This document shows positions 38,885 through 45,272 of a stretch of 64,000 nucleotides of DNA, one piece after another (the stretch's first letter is position 1; each line of letters opens with the position of its first letter). This stretch comes from Verrucomicrobiia bacterium (GTDB taxonomy: Bacteria > Verrucomicrobiota > Verrucomicrobiia > Limisphaerales > JAEYXS01). The DNA is taken from positions 64,001 through 128,000 of the forward strand of contig DASWYF010000033.1 of the NCBI GenBank assembly GCA_036405135.1, given 5' to 3'. Under the pieces are notes generated by a model. The model saw nothing but the letters and a program-made list of their open reading frames with translations, ran no database searches and was not told where the DNA came from. The position numbers and the translations under genes are program-made.

Positions 38885-40168
38885 ATGCCTATGTCTTCAC
38901 CATCGCTGAACCGCCGCCAATTCGTGAAACAAACCGCCGCGCTCGGTGCCATCGCTGTGGCCACGCCGAATCTCTTGCTGGGCCAGGCCAAAGGTGCCAA
39001 TGCCCGTGTGCGCGTTGGCATCATGGGCTTGGGCCGCGGTCGTGCCCACATTGCTGGCTACTTGGGCGTGCCGAATGTAGAGATCGCTTACCTCTGCGAT
39101 GTAGACTCCGCCAAGCTGGCTGCCGTGGCGAAGGACTTGGAGAAATTTCAATCGAGCAAGCCCAAGACGGTCACCGATTTCCGCGAGATTCTGAACGATC
39201 CGGAGATTGATGCCATTTCCATCGCCGCACCGAATTATTGGCACACACCCGCCGCCATCCTCGCGTGCAAGGCAGGCAAGCATGTGTATGTGGAAAAACC
39301 CGGCAGCCACAATGCGCATGAGGCCGGACTCATCGTCGCAGCTGCGCGTAAGTACAATCGCAATGTGCAGATGGGCAACCAGCGGCGCAGTTATCCGGCG
39401 ATGATTGAAGCCATCGCCAAGCTACGCGAAGGGGCTATCGGCAAGATCTATAATTCGCGTTCGTACTACACGAACAGCCGCGAGAGCATCAAAAAGGGCA
39501 CGCCAGAGAAACCGCCGGAAACGTTGAATTATGAGCTCTGGCAAGGCCCGACCCCGGAGCGGCCTTACCAGAAGAACCTCACACCGTACAACTGGCATTG
39601 GGTCTGGCACTACGGCGGTGGCGAGATGGCGAACAATGGTCCGCACATGCTGGACATCGTTCGCTGGGGCCTCGGCGTGGATCACCCGAAGAGCGTGGTC
39701 TTCAACGGCGGCCGCTATCATTTCGATGACGACCAGGAAACGCCCGATACCGGAGTGGCCGTCTATGACTTCGGTCATTGCGGTGCCACGCTCGAGATAT
39801 CGAGCTGCCATGCGCGCAAACCAACACCGCCACCATTCTGCGAGTTTTATGGCGATGGCGGCATGATGACCGTTTCCAGCTCGGGTTACATCATCTTCGA
39901 TAACAACGGCAAAGAGGTGGCCAAGAATCCGGGCAAAGCGAGTGACATCCCGCACTTCACGAACTTCATCAATTCCATCCGTCTCGGCGAACGCCTGAAC
40001 TCGGAGATCGAGGAAGCGCAAAAGAGCTCCATGCTGTGCCACTTGGCGAACATCGCCTATCGCAGCGGCAAGGTCGTCCAGTTCGATGGAAAGAAGATCA
40101 CCAATCCGGAAGGCACCGAGAAATTCTGGGGTCGCACCTATCGCCCCGGCTGGGAGCCGACGGTATAA
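38885..40168 (+). CDS. Tat-exported Gfo/Idh/MocA family oxidoreductase
   Basis: The 427-residue protein opens with a twin-arginine signal (SLNRRQFVKQTAALGAIAVA). A Rossmann domain follows (VRVGIMGLGRGRAHIAGYLG, LCDVD), then YVEKPGSHNAHEA, where the Lys of EKP is the usual catalytic or NAD-contact residue, and the C-terminal alpha/beta domain (WHWVWHYGGGEMANNGPHML). The family oxidises or reduces sugars and inositols with NAD(P). Tat-exported versions with pre-bound cofactor are widespread in this phylum and are linked to glycan breakdown. The substrate is unknown. A terminator follows 23 bp behind the stop. Confidence 0.93.
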   Translation: MPMSSPSLNRRQFVKQTAALGAIAVATPNLLLGQAKGANARVRVGIMGLGRGRAHIAGYLGVPNVEIAYLCDVDSAKLAAVAKDLEKFQSSKPKTVTDFREILNDPEIDAISIAAPNYWHTPAAILACKAGKHVYVEKPGSHNAHEAGLIVAAARKYNRNVQMGNQRRSYPAMIEAIAKLREGAIGKIYNSRSYYTNSRESIKKGTPEKPPETLNYELWQGPTPERPYQKNLTPYNWHWVWHYGGGEMANNGPHMLDIVRWGLGVDHPKSVVFNGGRYHFDDDQETPDTGVAVYDFGHCGATLEISSCHARKPTPPPFCEFYGDGGMMTVSSSGYIIFDNNGKEVAKNPGKASDIPHFTNFINSIRLGERLNSEIEEAQKSSMLCHLANIAYRSGKVVQFDGKKITNPEGTEKFWGRTYRPGWEPTV

Positions 40169-40191
40169 GCGAACACAAACGGTTTGAGCAT

Positions 40192-40236
40192 TTGCGGCGG
40201 CCTTGCCTTGCGCGGAGCCGCCGCAATGTTATTTTT
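40192..40236 (+). terminator. Rho-independent terminator of the Gfo/Idh/MocA gene
   Basis: TTGCGGCGGC (40192-40201) pairs with GCCGCCGCAA (40217-40226) and is followed by TGTTATTTTT. The GTG start of the DoxX-like gene lies just behind it at 40243. Confidence 0.85.
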
Positions 40237-40242
40237 CCGACA

Positions 40243-40653
40243 GTGAACCAGTCCGCTGATCCCAAACAAAGCACACGTCAGCGCGCCCGTTATTTTCTCG
40301 CTGTATTCTTTTTCATCGCCGGGCTGAATCACTTCCTAAATCCCCGACCTTATCTCGCGATGATGCCCGAGTCTCTGCCTGCACATGAAGCATTGAACAT
40401 TATCAGTGGGCTGGCAGAGATGATGGGAGCTATCGGTGTGCTCATCCCTTCCGTGCGCCGCCTCACCGGCTGGTGCCTTATCGTACTGCTGGTGGTCATT
40501 TTCCCGGCGAACATCAACGTCGCCTTGAACGGCTGGGAAGGTGTCTCCATTCCGCAATGGGCGCTGTGGGCACGGTTGCCTCTGCAGTTTGCGCTGATTT
40601 ACTGGGTCTACTTCGCGTGTTTGTTGCCGAAGCAGATGTCAGGAAAGCATTGA
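40243..40653 (+). CDS. DoxX-like small integral membrane protein
   Basis: The 136-residue protein has four hydrophobic segments and the DoxX-type N-terminal phrase FFFIAGLNHFLNPRPYLAMM. Proteins of this family act in quinol or thiosulfate redox chemistry and in oxidative stress, but this subgroup is uncharacterised. I chose the GTG at 40243 because it directly precedes the conserved part; the open frame further upstream overlaps the preceding terminator and gene. It may have its own promoter within the gap, as the terminator separates it from the upstream gene. Confidence 0.82.
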   Translation: MNQSADPKQSTRQRARYFLAVFFFIAGLNHFLNPRPYLAMMPESLPAHEALNIISGLAEMMGAIGVLIPSVRRLTGWCLIVLLVVIFPANINVALNGWEGVSIPQWALWARLPLQFALIYWVYFACLLPKQMSGKH

Positions 40654-40693
40654 ATCTCTTTGAATTTCCTTTCAGATAGGCGCTTCAAATCTC

Positions 40694-41941
40694 ATGCCTA
40701 TGCGCCTTGTCACCGGACTCTTTGCTGTCGCCCTACTCGCTCGAAGTGCCTTTGCAGATTCTGACTGGCCGAAGTTTCTAGGCCAAGGCCAACCAGGTCA
40801 TGCGCAGGGTAAGAATATTCCCATAGAGTTCGGTGAAGATAAAAACGTGCGCTGGAAAGTGGCGATTCCGGGTGAAGGCTGGTCCTCCCCCATGGTCTTG
40901 GGAAAACAGATCTGGATGGCTACGGCCACGGATGAAGGGAAATCTCTCCGCGCCATCTGCGTGGAACGTGAGAGCGGAAAGCTGCTGCATAATATCGAAC
41001 TTTTTCAGGTAGCTGCCCCTGCCCCTAAACACGCGCTGAATAGCCACGCGTCACCCACACCTGCATTGGAAGAAGGCCGCGCTTATTTCGCCTTTGGCAT
41101 GTATGGGGCCGCATGTGTTGATACCAAGACTGGCAAGATTCTCTGGAAGAATGCACGGCTCCCACACGATCACGGCGGCAATGGTCCGGGCAGTTCACCG
41201 ATTCTGTACAAGAACCTGTTCATCCTGAATTGCGACGGCACAGAGCTTCGCTACGTCGTGGCGTTGGACAAAAACACCGGCAAGCAGGTGTGGAAGACGG
41301 ATCGCTCGAACGACATGAGTACGGCGCATCCGCAGAAGCGCAAAGCCTACGCCACGCCCGCGATCATAAACGTGAACGGCCAGGACCAGCTCGTGAGCCC
41401 CGGTGGCTTCCGCCTCAGCAGCTACGAACCGCTCACCGGCAAAGAGATATGGTGGTCCGATGTCCCCGGCTACTCCAACGTGCAACCGCCCGTTTATGAA
41501 AACGGCCTCATCTACGTCTCCTCCTGTTTTGACAAAGCTCAACTCTGGGTCATCAAGCCCGATGGCAAAGGCGACGTGACCACCTCGCACCTCGCCTGGA
41601 AATACCTAAAAGGCGTGCCGAGCAAACCCACACCCATCGTCATCGGCAAAGAACTCTACCTCGTCTCCGATGATGGCATCGTCACCTGCCTCGATGCGAT
41701 CGCTGGCACGGAGATCTGGAAAGAACGCATCGGCGGTGCCTACTCCGCCACGCCCCTCCATGTCGATGGCCGCCTCTACCTCTTCAGTCACGCGGGCGAC
41801 ATCACCGTCCTCCAACCCGGCCGCGAATTGAAGATTCTCGCCAAGAGCAAGCTCGGTGACGGCTTCATGTCTTCCCCCGCCGTGGTGGATGATGCGCTGA
41901 TCCTCCGTAGCAAAACGCATCTGTATCGGATACAGAAGTGA
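40694..41941 (+). CDS. Exported PQQ-like beta-propeller protein
   Basis: The 415-residue protein has a signal peptide (cleavage after AFA) and repeated blades of the PQQ type: SWPKFLG-like start (SDWPKFLGQGQ), VRWKVAIPGEGWSSPMVLG, GKILWKNARLPHDHGGNGPG, GKQVWKTDRSN and ATPLHVDGRLYLFSHAGDI. Related proteins are described as PQQ-binding-like or WD40-like; few have been shown to bind PQQ, and dehydrogenase residues are not evident here. It is probably a periplasmic structural or binding protein. Its stop is only 12 bp from the left end of the IS200-like element. Confidence 0.88.
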   Translation: MPMRLVTGLFAVALLARSAFADSDWPKFLGQGQPGHAQGKNIPIEFGEDKNVRWKVAIPGEGWSSPMVLGKQIWMATATDEGKSLRAICVERESGKLLHNIELFQVAAPAPKHALNSHASPTPALEEGRAYFAFGMYGAACVDTKTGKILWKNARLPHDHGGNGPGSSPILYKNLFILNCDGTELRYVVALDKNTGKQVWKTDRSNDMSTAHPQKRKAYATPAIINVNGQDQLVSPGGFRLSSYEPLTGKEIWWSDVPGYSNVQPPVYENGLIYVSSCFDKAQLWVIKPDGKGDVTTSHLAWKYLKGVPSKPTPIVIGKELYLVSDDGIVTCLDAIAGTEIWKERIGGAYSATPLHVDGRLYLFSHAGDITVLQPGRELKILAKSKLGDGFMSSPAVVDDALILRSKTHLYRIQK

Positions 41942-41952
41942 TGGAGCGTGCC

Positions 41953-41991
41953 TTGGCCCAAAAGGGCCAAAAGATTCCAGCCCAGGGCAGC
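41953..41991 (+). repeat. Left terminal inverted repeat
   Basis: Begins with the palindrome TTGGCCCAAAAGGGCCAA, continues AAGATTCCAGCCCAGGGCAGC, and mirrors 42577-42614. Confidence 0.8.
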
Positions 41992-42015
41992 GTCTGTCTT
42001 TTACGCTGCCCTGGG
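41981..42015. repeat. Left hairpin 2
   Basis: CCCAGGGCAGCGT (41981-41993) pairs over 13 bp with ACGCTGCCCTGGG (42003-42015), 9-nt loop. Its arm is shared with the terminal repeat. Confidence 0.8.
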
Positions 42016-42034
42016 ATAAAAGCATTGCAAAACC

Positions 42035-42051
42035 GTGCCCTGAAAGGGCAC
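42035..42051. repeat. Left hairpin 3
   Basis: GTGCCCTGAAAGGGCAC, a 7-bp stem with a GAA loop, just before the transposase start; it may occlude the ribosome site. Confidence 0.7.
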
Positions 42052-42061
42052 AAGAACCTCC

Positions 42062-42514
42062 ATGCCACAATCGCTCGCCAAGATTTACATCCATCTGATT
42101 TTCTCCACCAAAAATCGCGAGCGAATGATTTCCGACTCAATTCGTAAAGAACTACACGAATATATGGGCGGCATCTTGAACGGACATGGATGTATACCCG
42201 TGGAGATCAATTCCGAACCTGATCACGCCCACATCTTATTCCTTATGACCCGCACCGAAACATTGAGCGAGGTAGTCGGCCAGTTGAAGAAAAGTTCGAA
42301 CGATTGGCTAAAAAGAACTTCATCCGAATATGCTCAATTTTACTGGCAAGGCGGCTACGCAGCATTCTCTGTCAGCAAATCGCAAGTTGAAGAAGTGCGT
42401 CAGTATATCAGGAATCAAAGAGAACATAATCAGGTGAAATCTTTTCAGGATGAATTGCGGGCGTTCTTCAAAGCATACGAAATGGAATATGATGAACGCT
42501 ATGTCTGGGAGTGA
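42062..42514 (+). CDS. IS200/IS605-type Y1 transposase (TnpA-like)
   Basis: The 150-residue protein is a complete single-domain HUH transposase. It has the HUH histidine pair in PDHAHILF (His-x-His) and the catalytic tyrosine in QYIRNQREH, as in TnpA enzymes that cut and join single-stranded DNA at hairpins. The opening LAKIYIHLIFSTKNRE is typical of the intact 145-155 residue group found beside palindromic repeats. The reading frame is undamaged, so the enzyme may be active. No TnpB or IscB partner gene is present. The start is 10 bp behind hairpin 3. Confidence 0.92.
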   Translation: MPQSLAKIYIHLIFSTKNRERMISDSIRKELHEYMGGILNGHGCIPVEINSEPDHAHILFLMTRTETLSEVVGQLKKSSNDWLKRTSSEYAQFYWQGGYAAFSVSKSQVEEVRQYIRNQREHNQVKSFQDELRAFFKAYEMEYDERYVWE

Positions 42515-42522
42515 TGCTTCTG

Positions 42523-42539
42523 GCGGCCCTTCAGGCCGC
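42523..42539. repeat. Right hairpin 3
   Basis: GCGGCC, CTTCA, GGCCGC, directly behind the transposase stop; it is the counterpart in position of the hairpin at 42035-42051. Confidence 0.7.
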
Positions 42540-42562
42540 TATTATTAGTTAGCCACCGATTA

Positions 42563-42587
42563 CCCAAGGCAGCCAAGCTGCCTTGGG
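42563..42587. repeat. Right hairpin 2
   Basis: CCCAAGGCAGC and GCTGCCTTGGG form a perfect 11-bp stem with a CAA loop; counterpart of 41981-42015. Confidence 0.8.
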
Positions 42588-42614
42588 CTGGAATCTGTTG
42601 GCCCTTTGGGCCAA
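42577..42614 (-). repeat. Right terminal inverted repeat
   Basis: Ends in the palindrome TTGGCCCTTTGGGCCAA (42598-42614); inverted copy of 41953-41991. It stops 3 bp before the LysR stop codon. Confidence 0.8.
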
Positions 42615-42617
42615 ATA

Positions 42618-43535
42618 TCAAAACAACACATTCTGGATAAACGCCTCCAACGGCTCTGCCCTTGGCAATCCTTTCCTCACCACCACCGCCAGTTCCCGCT
42701 CAAACATCGGCTTGATCAGAATGCGACGGACTGCACGGCGTTTCTCATACAGAGGCAAGACACGGTGCGGCACCAGACTTACGCCCAACCCTAACGAGAC
42801 GAGATTCACTATCGTATCAAAGCTGTCTAACTCCATCGCAGGCTCCAGCGGCCAGTTCTGTTTCTCCAGCCAGAGATTTAGCAGCCGGCCTGTGTTTCCA
42901 TTCGGATCCAGCATCAACCACCGCTGGCCTTGCAGTAACTTCTTGGCCTCACGTAATGTGAGATGCTTCCCCGCCTTCGTCATCGAAAAACCCGGTGGTG
43001 TGATCAACGTGAACTCATCGATAAAACGATGCGTTATCTCTAACCCGCGCGGCAACCGTCTTGGCGGACACAATAATCCCGCATCCAATGTCCTTGCTTC
43101 TAGCGCAGCAATGATCTCGTTGCTCGACTGCTGGGTAACGTGCAACTGCACGTTCGGAAACTTCCGTTGAAACGAAAAGAAATAACCCGGCAGATATGCC
43201 AGCCCGATGCTGCGTGCCACCCCGATGCGCAAGGTCTGTGGCACCAATTGAAACGCCTGCTGCAATTCATGCACCAGACTCTCCGTGGAATGCATGATCT
43301 CTCGCGACCGTTTCCACAACAATTCTCCCGCTGCCGTGAGATGCACGCGTCGCGTCGTCCGCTCGAAGAGTGCCACGCCCAACTGCTCCTCCATCCCCCG
43401 GATCTGTCGTGTGACTGCACTCTGCGTCAACCCCGCCTTCTGCGCTGCCTGCGTGAAACTCCCCGTTTCCGCCACGAGCTGGAACAGGCTCAAATCGTAG
43501 AGATCGAAAGGATGCTGATTCAGATATTCATGCAT
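42618..43535 (-). CDS. LysR family transcriptional regulator
   Basis: The 305-residue protein has the standard N-terminal winged helix-turn-helix (about 13-72: LFQLVAETGSFTQAAQKAG, SAVTRQIRGMEEQLGVALFE) and a periplasmic-binding-like effector domain. It is divergent from the ferredoxin gene with a 119-bp gap, the usual place for a LysR-controlled promoter. So it probably regulates the ferredoxin and itself; whether it also reaches the chromate transporter, which is on the opposite strand beyond, is uncertain. The effector cannot be predicted; CysB/Cbl-like specificity is possible but unproven. Confidence 0.93.
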   Translation of the reverse strand: MHEYLNQHPFDLYDLSLFQLVAETGSFTQAAQKAGLTQSAVTRQIRGMEEQLGVALFERTTRRVHLTAAGELLWKRSREIMHSTESLVHELQQAFQLVPQTLRIGVARSIGLAYLPGYFFSFQRKFPNVQLHVTQQSSNEIIAALEARTLDAGLLCPPRRLPRGLEITHRFIDEFTLITPPGFSMTKAGKHLTLREAKKLLQGQRWLMLDPNGNTGRLLNLWLEKQNWPLEPAMELDSFDTIVNLVSLGLGVSLVPHRVLPLYEKRRAVRRILIKPMFERELAVVVRKGLPRAEPLEAFIQNVLF

Positions 43536-43607
43536 TTATAACATCAATCTAATCATATTAATGAATTATGAGCAAATGAATGCTGCTGGCAGGATAGGGA
43601 CATGAAA

Positions 43608-43628
43608 ACCGGCTGGATGTCAGCCGGT
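43608..43628 (+). promoter_or_regulatory. Hairpin in the LysR-ferredoxin intergenic region
   Basis: ACCGGCTG (43608-43615) pairs perfectly with CAGCCGGT (43621-43628) around a GATGT loop, 26 bp before the ferredoxin ATG. It has no T tract, so it may be an operator dyad or leader structure rather than a terminator. Confidence 0.45.
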
Positions 43629-43654
43629 CATAAAACAAAAAAGAAAGAAAACCT

Positions 43655-43903
43655 ATGGCTTCACCAGAACTGCGGTTGCCGGAGAATGCACCCGGACCAT
43701 TCTATGTAACAAGCGAGTGCATCGACTGCGACTTGTGTCGTGAAGTGGCTCCGTCGATTTATCGGCGCAACGAAGAAGTAGGCACCACCGTCGTTTATCA
43801 TCAACCTGTGAATGCCGAAGAACGCGCCTTGGCTATCGAAGGCATGGACGGCTGCCCCGTCGAAGCCATCGGTTGTACCGAACCGATCACTCAACCTGCT
43901 TGA
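43655..43903 (+). CDS. Small [4Fe-4S] ferredoxin
   Basis: The 82-residue protein has one cluster motif, C-X2-C-X2-C (SECIDCDLC), and the fourth ligand in DGCPVEAIG, so a single [4Fe-4S] cluster of the monocluster ferredoxin type. Other cysteines are few, and a second cluster is absent. It would carry electrons in the cytoplasm for an unknown partner. It is divergent to the LysR gene and ends 7 bp before the convergent chrA stop. Confidence 0.9.
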   Translation: MASPELRLPENAPGPFYVTSECIDCDLCREVAPSIYRRNEEVGTTVVYHQPVNAEERALAIEGMDGCPVEAIGCTEPITQPA

Positions 43904-43910
43904 TTGAGGC

Positions 43911-45272
43911 TCACATCCCTAGCAGCAGCTTGTAGATTACACCCATCATCCCCGCACCCAGCACCACGGGGATGATGTCCCATTTCCACTTCACCATCCC
44001 CACGAACGTCACGAGGCTTACCACCACCGCAAACCAATCCACCGTTTGCGGCGCAGGAAAAAGCACGTGCAATCCCAGCCACACGGCGAGATTCAGGATC
44101 ACACCGACCACAGCGGCTGTTACGGCGGAGAGAGATGCGGTGAGGCTATCCTTGCCACGTAATTGCTCGATGTGCGGCGCACCAAGAAAGATCCAAAGGA
44201 AGCACGGCAGGAATGTCACCCATGTGGTGATGAAAGCGCCCAGTGTTGCTCCCATCATAGGTGATAATGTTCCCGGTTGATTCCAACCGCCGAGAAACCC
44301 GACGAACTGCAGCACCATGATCAGCGGTCCCGGGGTCGTCTCAGCGAGGCCCAATCCATCCAGCATCTGCCCCGCCGTGAGCCATTGGTAATTTTCCACC
44401 GCCTGCTGCGAGACATACGGCAGCACCGCATAAGCACCACCGAAGGTGACCATCGCAGCTTTGCTGAAGAAGAGCCCTTGTTTCACCAGAGTGTGATCCC
44501 AGCCCAAGCTCACACCGAGCAGCAACACCGGTGTCCACCACAGCGCGAGACAAACCGCGCAAACCTTGAGCGCCCGCGCGAGTGAAGGTTTCGCGTGGTC
44601 AGGTGTGGAAGATTCATCACTGATAAGCGCGGTCTTTCCGTCCTTCTTGCTGGCATGCCCCTTCAAGATTAGAAACTTATCCCGCCAATATTTCCCACCG
44701 AAGTAACCCACAGTCGCCGCTCCCGCGATGATGACCGGAAACGGCACATGCAGAAAAAAGATGCCGATGAACGCCACCGTCGCCAGCGCCCACATGACAT
44801 TATTCTTCAACACCTTCTGCCCGATGCGGATGACCGCCGCCATCACGATCGCCAGCACCGCCGGTTTCAGTCCGTAAAAAATCGCCTCGATCCACGGCAC
44901 TTTTCCGTACTGCACATAAACAAAACTCAACGCCCATAAGATGAACATGGACGGCAGCACAAACAGCGCCCCCGCCACGATGCCACCCCAGGTGCGATGC
45001 AACAGCCAGCCAATGTAAGTAGCAAGCTGCTGCGCCTCCGGCCCCGGCAGCAGCATGCAATAATTCAACGCGTGCAGGAACCGGCTATCGCTGATCCAGC
45101 GCCGCTTCTCCACCAGCTCAGTGTGCATGATGGCGATTTGTCCCGTAGGCCCGCCGAAACTGATGAAGCCGAGCTTGAGCCAAAACCGGAACGCCTCTGC
45201 AAAAGTCGGCGGCCGTGGCGGCTCACTGAGTACCACCTTCGTTTCATTGCCGCTGTTATCCACGTTGCTCAT
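43911..45272 (-). CDS. chrA: Chromate transporter ChrA (two-domain)
   Basis: The 453-residue protein has two homologous halves, each with an FGG motif and a PGP motif: FISFGGPTGQIAI and MLLPGPEAQQ in the first, VTFGGAYAVLPYV and ETTPGPLIM in the second. This is the CHR superfamily long form with about 12 membrane helices. Characterised members export chromate by proton-coupled antiport; some family members may move other anions such as sulfate. A hydrophilic linker (GHASKKDGKTALISDESST) joins the halves. The start matches the family; no Shine-Dalgarno sequence is obvious. Confidence 0.95.
   Translation of the reverse strand: MSNVDNSGNETKVVLSEPPRPPTFAEAFRFWLKLGFISFGGPTGQIAIMHTELVEKRRWISDSRFLHALNYCMLLPGPEAQQLATYIGWLLHRTWGGIVAGALFVLPSMFILWALSFVYVQYGKVPWIEAIFYGLKPAVLAIVMAAVIRIGQKVLKNNVMWALATVAFIGIFFLHVPFPVIIAGAATVGYFGGKYWRDKFLILKGHASKKDGKTALISDESSTPDHAKPSLARALKVCAVCLALWWTPVLLLGVSLGWDHTLVKQGLFFSKAAMVTFGGAYAVLPYVSQQAVENYQWLTAGQMLDGLGLAETTPGPLIMVLQFVGFLGGWNQPGTLSPMMGATLGAFITTWVTFLPCFLWIFLGAPHIEQLRGKDSLTASLSAVTAAVVGVILNLAVWLGLHVLFPAPQTVDWFAVVVSLVTFVGMVKWKWDIIPVVLGAGMMGVIYKLLLGM

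Follow-up and report, generated by a model that had tools for sequence, protein, structure and literature searches.

Anatomy of the element

A compact transposase unit of 662 bp lies between two convergent host genes in the window, the 64,000-nucleotide stretch of Verrucomicrobiia DNA analysed here, and its tnpA gene is framed by three hairpins on each side. The features of the region are as follows (window coordinates).

40694–41941, + strand: left host gene, PQQ/BamB-like beta-propeller (Pfam PQQ_2); context, outside the element
41953–42614, + strand: whole element, 662 bp, from the span of similarity to a congener copy and the inverted-repeat arms, which reach 42615
41953–41970, + strand: outer hairpin hp1-L, left terminus, TTGGCCC-AAAA-GGGCCAA (covariation model A2/R1)
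41977–41980, + strand: CCAG tag immediately 5′ of hp2-L, at the YAG position, corresponding to the GTAG tag of REPs
41981–42015, + strand: middle hairpin hp2-L, CCCAGGGCAGCGT...ACGCTGCCCTGGG (helix 2, compensatory changes in 10 of 16 pairs)
42035–42051, + strand: inner hairpin hp3-L, GTGCCC-TGAAA-GGGCAC (helix 3 of the covariation alignment; ssDNA folding)
42062–42514, + strand: tnpA, 150-aa Y1 HUH transposase (Pfam PF01797, NF033573, alignment A1, AlphaFold)
42523–42539, + strand: inner hairpin hp3-R, GCGGCC-CTTCA-GGCCGC (covariation, ssDNA folding)
42563–42587, + strand: middle hairpin hp2-R, CCCAAGGCAGC-CAA-GCTGCCTTGGG (inverted arms, covariation)
42588–42591, − strand: CCAG tag of hp2-R, inward when read on the minus strand (inward/outward YAG count)
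42598–42614, + strand: outer hairpin hp1-R, right terminus, TTGGCCC-TTT-GGGCCAA (inverted arms, covariation)
42618–43535, − strand: right host gene, LysR-type regulator (Pfam HTH_1 / LysR_substrate); context, outside the element

All six hairpins have perfect stems, and the inverted-repeat arms (41953–41991 and 42577–42615) comprise 39 nt with 87% complementarity, the core GATTCCAGCCCA being common to both ends. As single-stranded DNA, the left and right ends fold with z values of −6.9 and −5.6, respectively, and none of 200 dinucleotide shuffles was as stable. Similarity to a copy at an unrelated locus of a congener covers 41954–42613, so that the coordinates of the original prediction are right to about 1 bp. 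Its description of a discrete unit with three hairpins per side, inverted repeats of 38–39 bp and a shared core is likewise borne out, and the ends, being inverted, are indeed unlike those of classical IS200/IS605 elements. The stop codons of the PQQ and LysR genes are 11 and 3 bp from the element. An Rfam search over window positions 40000–45000 returned no RNA families. The tag of the element's own family is CCAG and not GTAG, the form common across loci being YAG.

TnpA is a constrained Y1 transposase

The open reading frame encodes an intact Y1 transposase, as predicted, of 150 aa, matched by Pfam PF01797 (Y1_Tnp, E 7e-27) and by NCBIfam NF033573, a family named IS200/IS605 family transposase. 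Its HUH motif is DHAH (D54-H55-A56-H57), followed by W95-Q96 and the Y motif YIRNQREHN (Y115-xxx-Q119-xx-H122). Across an alignment of 23 proteins D54, H55, H57, W95, Q96, Y115, Q119 and H122 are invariant, including the catalytic residues H55, H57, Y115 and Q119; position 123 is H in at least 90% of these proteins, where the element's TnpA has N123, and it also has A56. The folds closest to the AlphaFold model (pLDDT 87) are those of the ISDra2 and IS608 transposases, then TnpAREP 4er8.

By signature, the protein appears to match TnpA-Y1 subclass 1.2, defined by DH[IV]H, WQ, Y-xxx-Q-xx-HH and a median of 148 aa (Quentin 2018, PMC6006769); Y motif, HUH, WQ, size and C-terminal extension all agree, while the class 2 Y-xxx-NP motif of TnpAREP is absent. 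Comparison of tnpA between the element's genome (G000, 5.8 Mb) and one of its two congeners (G001; the other is G002) gave a pN of 0.11 with saturated synonymous sites (pS 0.84), indicating strong constraint on TnpA by purifying selection; because of this saturation, recent activity cannot be read from tnpA divergence.

Base pairing of the ends is conserved

In a covariation alignment of 30 end sequences, compared with 500 shuffles, 96.3% of the cells were paired (86.8% shuffled), 13 pairs had changed on both sides (8.0 shuffled), double-change cells numbered 86 (27.9 ± 4.9 shuffled) and the covariation score was 0.250 (0.096 ± 0.008 shuffled). None of the 500 shuffles reached the observed values, a comparison which yields no strict probability, as the aligned ends are mutually related. 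When the partner was shifted by one column, pairing fell to 43–51%. Covariation is found mostly in hp2 (10 of its 16 pairs). Even though the sequences are related, conserved structure is the simplest reading of this slide control and of the frequent compensatory changes in hp2.

Copies, miniatures and solo ends in the genome

Six tnpA genes are present in G000, the other five being 38–46% identical to that of the element; within the genome, the L002/L003 pair shares 93% identity and the rest 38–50%. Inverted hairpin-bearing ends flank all six, a result unaffected by the fact that the six-locus comparison took minus-strand loci as plus and thereby swapped their upstream and downstream flanks. 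The REP tag GTAG occurs at four of the six loci (L002–L005). Both of the other end families searched, belonging to the five remaining tnpA genes, also have dispersed copies.

A BLAST search with the element's left end gave matches at 19 places, and a covariance model of the 30 ends recovered the tnpA element, seven complete miniatures, one decayed copy and approximately eight solo ends, in total about 24 ends:

C48:12114-12322, complete miniature
C48:148350-148558, complete miniature
C10:4460-4666, complete miniature
C20:238283-238506, complete miniature
C27:8925-9134, complete miniature
C19:54463-54672, complete miniature
C16:27287-27518, complete miniature
C31:75548-75760, decayed copy

These are the other copies and solo hairpins that the original prediction had proposed to look for. 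The miniatures (about 207–232 bp) consist of a left end joined to a right end without tnpA and are always inverted with hp1 outermost. Those inspected by eye combine a left-type end (long hp2, hp3 GTGYCC) with a right-type end (hp3 GCGGCC), with a spacer of a few to about 30 bases from one hp3 hairpin to the other, a layout that would be expected if tnpA had been deleted. A 209-nt miniature has a folding z of −11.8, and its two ends could pair with each other. Some of the solo ends resemble miniatures that have been truncated; L008, for one, retains a mutated remnant of the opposite hp3.

Further repeats were noted in G000. C10:95289-95377 and C28:76348-76434 (L024 and L025) are L006-type miniatures with differing outer hairpins, GTGCC..GGCAC at one end and GGCCC..GGGCC, that of the element family, at the other, which suggests an exchange of hp1 between families. 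At C10:84501-84757, a gap of about 45 bp separates a truncated copy of the element family from an end belonging to the L002/L003 family. G000 also contains no fewer than 30 copies of a palindromic repeat of approximately 50 bp, CTTCTCCCCTCGGAGGGGAGAAGGATTGAGGATGAGGGG, which is unrelated to the element family and of which some further copies occur in G001 and G002.

Insertion sites differ between congeners

In the congener G001, a tnpA of 83% identity, flanked by the same ends (C140:2346-3007), occupies another locus than in G000. The two elements are absent from each other's sites: the PQQ gene in G001, and the PQQ and LysR genes in G002, are not accompanied by the element, and the genes on either side of the G001 element lie next to each other on contig C20 of G000, where no such element separates them. 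In G002, a solo right end in opposite orientation lies beside the same gene that flanks the G001 element. Two miniatures show the same pattern, C20:238283 having no counterpart in the equivalent gaps of G002 (C220) and G001 (C9), and C27:8925 none at the equivalent G002 site (C355). Insertion sites are hence polymorphic between the species. The comparison with relatives that the original prediction had suggested for defining the exact ends succeeded in part: sites lacking the element were seen, but the intergenic DNA of G001 and G002 is too diverged for an empty site to be read to the base, and the PQQ–LysR adjacency is not conserved. In relatives, the neighbouring genes contain no continuation of the repeats.

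Two further observations concern these regions. Before one gene in G000 (C47:135988-136341, L244), an L006-family miniature and a solo end of the element family are found, while the same upstream region contains a complete miniature of the element family in G002 (C339:2425-2630) and neither in G001 (C109); this may be an insertion site that was repeatedly used or is partly shared. Where G000 has a miniature in one intergenic gap, G001 has about 625 bp of unrelated DNA (C9:6475-7099).

The flanks of 34 ends share no target base outside hp1, the information there being at most 0.45 bit (n = 12–22); the comparison is relied on for this negative result alone, because in miniatures the search stretch extended into the other end and some left/right labels were wrong. 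That the element is an ordinary insertion sequence of the IS200 type (subclass 1.1), with ends palindromic by chance, is quite improbable. The NCBIfam name, the nearest solved folds (ISDra2 and IS608) and the different locus in the congeners would fit such an element, but the protein has the Y-xxx-Q-xx-HH and WQ of subclass 1.2 instead of Y[IV]ENQ with W[TS] (PMC6006769), the genome copies are single and diverged (38–46%, one pair 93%) rather than near-identical, and the ends are inverted, not hairpins of the same orientation, with no fixed base outside them.

A second alternative, somewhat less improbable but still unlikely, is a domesticated, immobile TnpA with a host role, for example in DNA processing or repair, the hairpins being structural or RNA leftovers. 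The strong purifying selection with saturated synonymous sites, the presence of one gene per end family, the widespread low copy number and the literature on REP-like repeats, which are often kept for mRNA effects, are in line with it. Against it, the reciprocal absence at sites and the tnpA-less copies with intact covarying hairpins show that the element has moved in the past.

A terminator role is not supported

The position between two convergent genes had led to the prediction that the element also serves as their terminator. Of 13 copies that could be placed using gene calls from a simple codon score, five lie between convergent, six between tandem and two between divergent genes (9, 20 and 9, respectively, among the 38 gene pairs of the window), and one terminator-like motif was found compared with 1.1 expected from shuffles. 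On this mixture of orientations and the shuffled-level motif count, the terminator reading was rejected. That the hairpins are host transcription terminators which merely resemble transposon ends is hardly credible: a copy lies between convergent genes here and at four other sites, often a few bp from the stops, but tandem and divergent placements, the lack of motif enrichment and the same sequence around tnpA at another locus of a congener speak against it, and the dispersed homologous copies already contradict it. Nor do the ends prove to be chance host terminators. Passive termination at some sites is possible, but it is not what the element is: the locus holds a mobile element.

Inverted hairpin ends recur across phyla

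Eighty relatives from named genomes were chosen by protein similarity alone, and 77 were usable. When the flank upstream of each gene was matched in inverted orientation to the one downstream, the best score was at least 15 in 57 of the 77 loci (5.3 expected from mismatched pairings) and at least 20 in 37 (1.2 expected). By the phylum labels in the record titles, inverted flanks occur in 14/18 loci of Verrucomicrobiota, 11/11 of Planctomycetota, 21/32 of Bacteroidota and 3/4 of Acidobacteriota, with few from other phyla. Hairpins with a stem of at least 7 number 1.27 per flank, as opposed to 0.26 in shuffled flanks and 0.34 in nearby segments at a distance of about 1 kb. Among 321 hairpins, YAG precedes the hairpin in inward orientation 74 times and in outward orientation 8 times. 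The tag is common but was not seen at every locus, since a strict perfect-stem search found tagged hairpins at both ends of 22/83 loci and at one end of 26/83. Relatives of TnpA occur in 63 of 288 Verrucomicrobiota genomes, with one to six copies each, and viral contigs yielded three, all weak.

The loops of hairpins at subclass-1.2-like loci (L075–L154) are strand-asymmetric, their sequence in the inward reading often being AAC, GAA, AAA or TGAAN; TGAA(N) loops appear 27 times in the inward and 5 times in the outward reading.

Subclass 1.2 has been described as occurring mostly in Cyanobacteria and Bacteroidetes, at a mean of 1.7 copies per genome with 36% identity between copies, with no REPs listed and terminal hairpin features generally absent (PMC6006769). 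Our data disagree with the last two points, which we take as correcting the description for the phyla sampled, Cyanobacteria being outside the sample.

Proposed mechanism and significance

Taken together, we consider the locus to be probably an autonomous single-stranded DNA transposable element of the REPtron/TIRtron type that moves itself and its miniatures. We propose a hypothetical mechanism in which (i) TnpA would recognise the folded end of three hairpins with the YAG tag on the middle one; (ii) TnpA would cut and rejoin single-stranded DNA exposed by unwinding of the region, for instance on the template of the lagging strand; (iii) the whole element, and likewise the non-autonomous miniatures composed of a left and a right end, would be moved or copied, the latter by TnpA acting in trans; and (iv) each tnpA lineage would be paired with its own matching ends. 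As the ends are inverted, each strand presents a tagged end resembling a REP together with a complementary one resembling an iREP; from this single tagged hairpin per strand, as in REP/iREP, we infer that TnpA acts on folded single-stranded ends. TnpAREP binds only the tagged strand and cuts at CT, and positions 3–4 of GTAG have been proposed as site selectors (PMC8266576). The AG conserved in YAG is consistent with this role and may guide the choice of the CT site, following the A3G4 model of that study. Points against the proposal are the copy number, low for a REP-like family (about 24 ends), the CCAG instead of GTAG tag, the saturated synonymous divergence, the failure to find a base-exact empty site and the absence of a common target base outside hp1.

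On a broader scale, subclass 1.2, until now an orphan group said to be without IS properties or REPs (PMC6006769), could comprise the transposases of a widespread class with three-hairpin, YAG-tagged inverted ends that mobilise six-hairpin miniatures and bridge IS200/IS605 and RAYT/REP systems, a generalisation that we regard as evenly balanced. The ends described here are candidate substrates for this transposase subclass, to which the main survey assigned none (PMC6006769), and its biochemistry therefore becomes directly testable with defined oligonucleotides. The element would also supply an intermediate between IS200/IS605 and REP/RAYT systems, the origin of which is an open question, and account for one set of the hairpin repeats scattered through Verrucomicrobiota genomes, and probably through those of Planctomycetota and Bacteroidota.

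Comparison with known systems

REP/iREP pairs flank tnpAREP. Inverted repeats beside RAYT-like genes were already known from these pairs and from TIRtrons, and on this point the original prediction, which called the nested symmetric design unusual, was overstated; the gene does behave as a low-copy, constrained and RAYT-like one. TIRtrons are RAYT-like genes lying between TIRs, which recur as solo and dimeric repeats and some of which are 'double palindromic' (Di Nocera 2013, PMC3733652), and published TIRYTs belong mostly to subclass 2.1, also to 2.2 and 2.5 (PMC6006769). The element resembles them in having a RAYT-like Y1 gene between long terminal inverted repeats (39-nt arms, 87%), some self-complementary in TIRtrons, and in the single or dimeric repetition of its ends elsewhere in the genome (about 24 ends in G000). 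It differs in its subclass 1.2-like protein with Y-xxx-Q instead of Y-xxx-NP and in its three hairpins per end, the middle one tagged; inspection of the element's ends revealed no GGGGWSAS motif.

With REPtrons, that is REPIN/BIME repeats with TnpAREP (subclasses 2.2, 2.4, 2.5, 2.7 and 2.8), it shares a low-copy Y1 gene, inverted tagged hairpins, an own repeat family and dispersed inverted pairs. Opitutus terrae and Rhodopirellula baltica are known to carry GTAG repeats, and in G000 GTAG stands at the paralogous loci L002–L005. In contrast, the element's Y motif is Y-xxx-Q-xx-HH, not Y-xxx-NP, its family tag is CCAG/YAG, extra outer and inner hairpins are present, and copies number in the tens, not hundreds. 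With IS200/IS605 elements (subclass 1.1; IS608, ISDra2), the Y1 HUH fold, catalytic residues, protein size and presence of end hairpins are common, but the element's ends are inverted and triple, tnpB is lacking, miniatures occur, and copies are diverged and single; same-orientation subterminal hairpins, near-identical copies and a fixed left-end target were not found. Both recognised hairpins of IS200/IS605 are on one strand, whereas the element has one tagged end per strand. With subclass 1.2, the element agrees in protein motifs (DH[x]H, WQ, Y-xxx-Q-xx-HH), length, C-terminal extension, low copy number and low identity between copies, yet inverted hairpin ends are the rule here and the host range is wider than in the published account (PMC6006769). 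No description of a three-hairpin inverted end of subclass 1.2 with miniatures was found in the open-licence papers searched.
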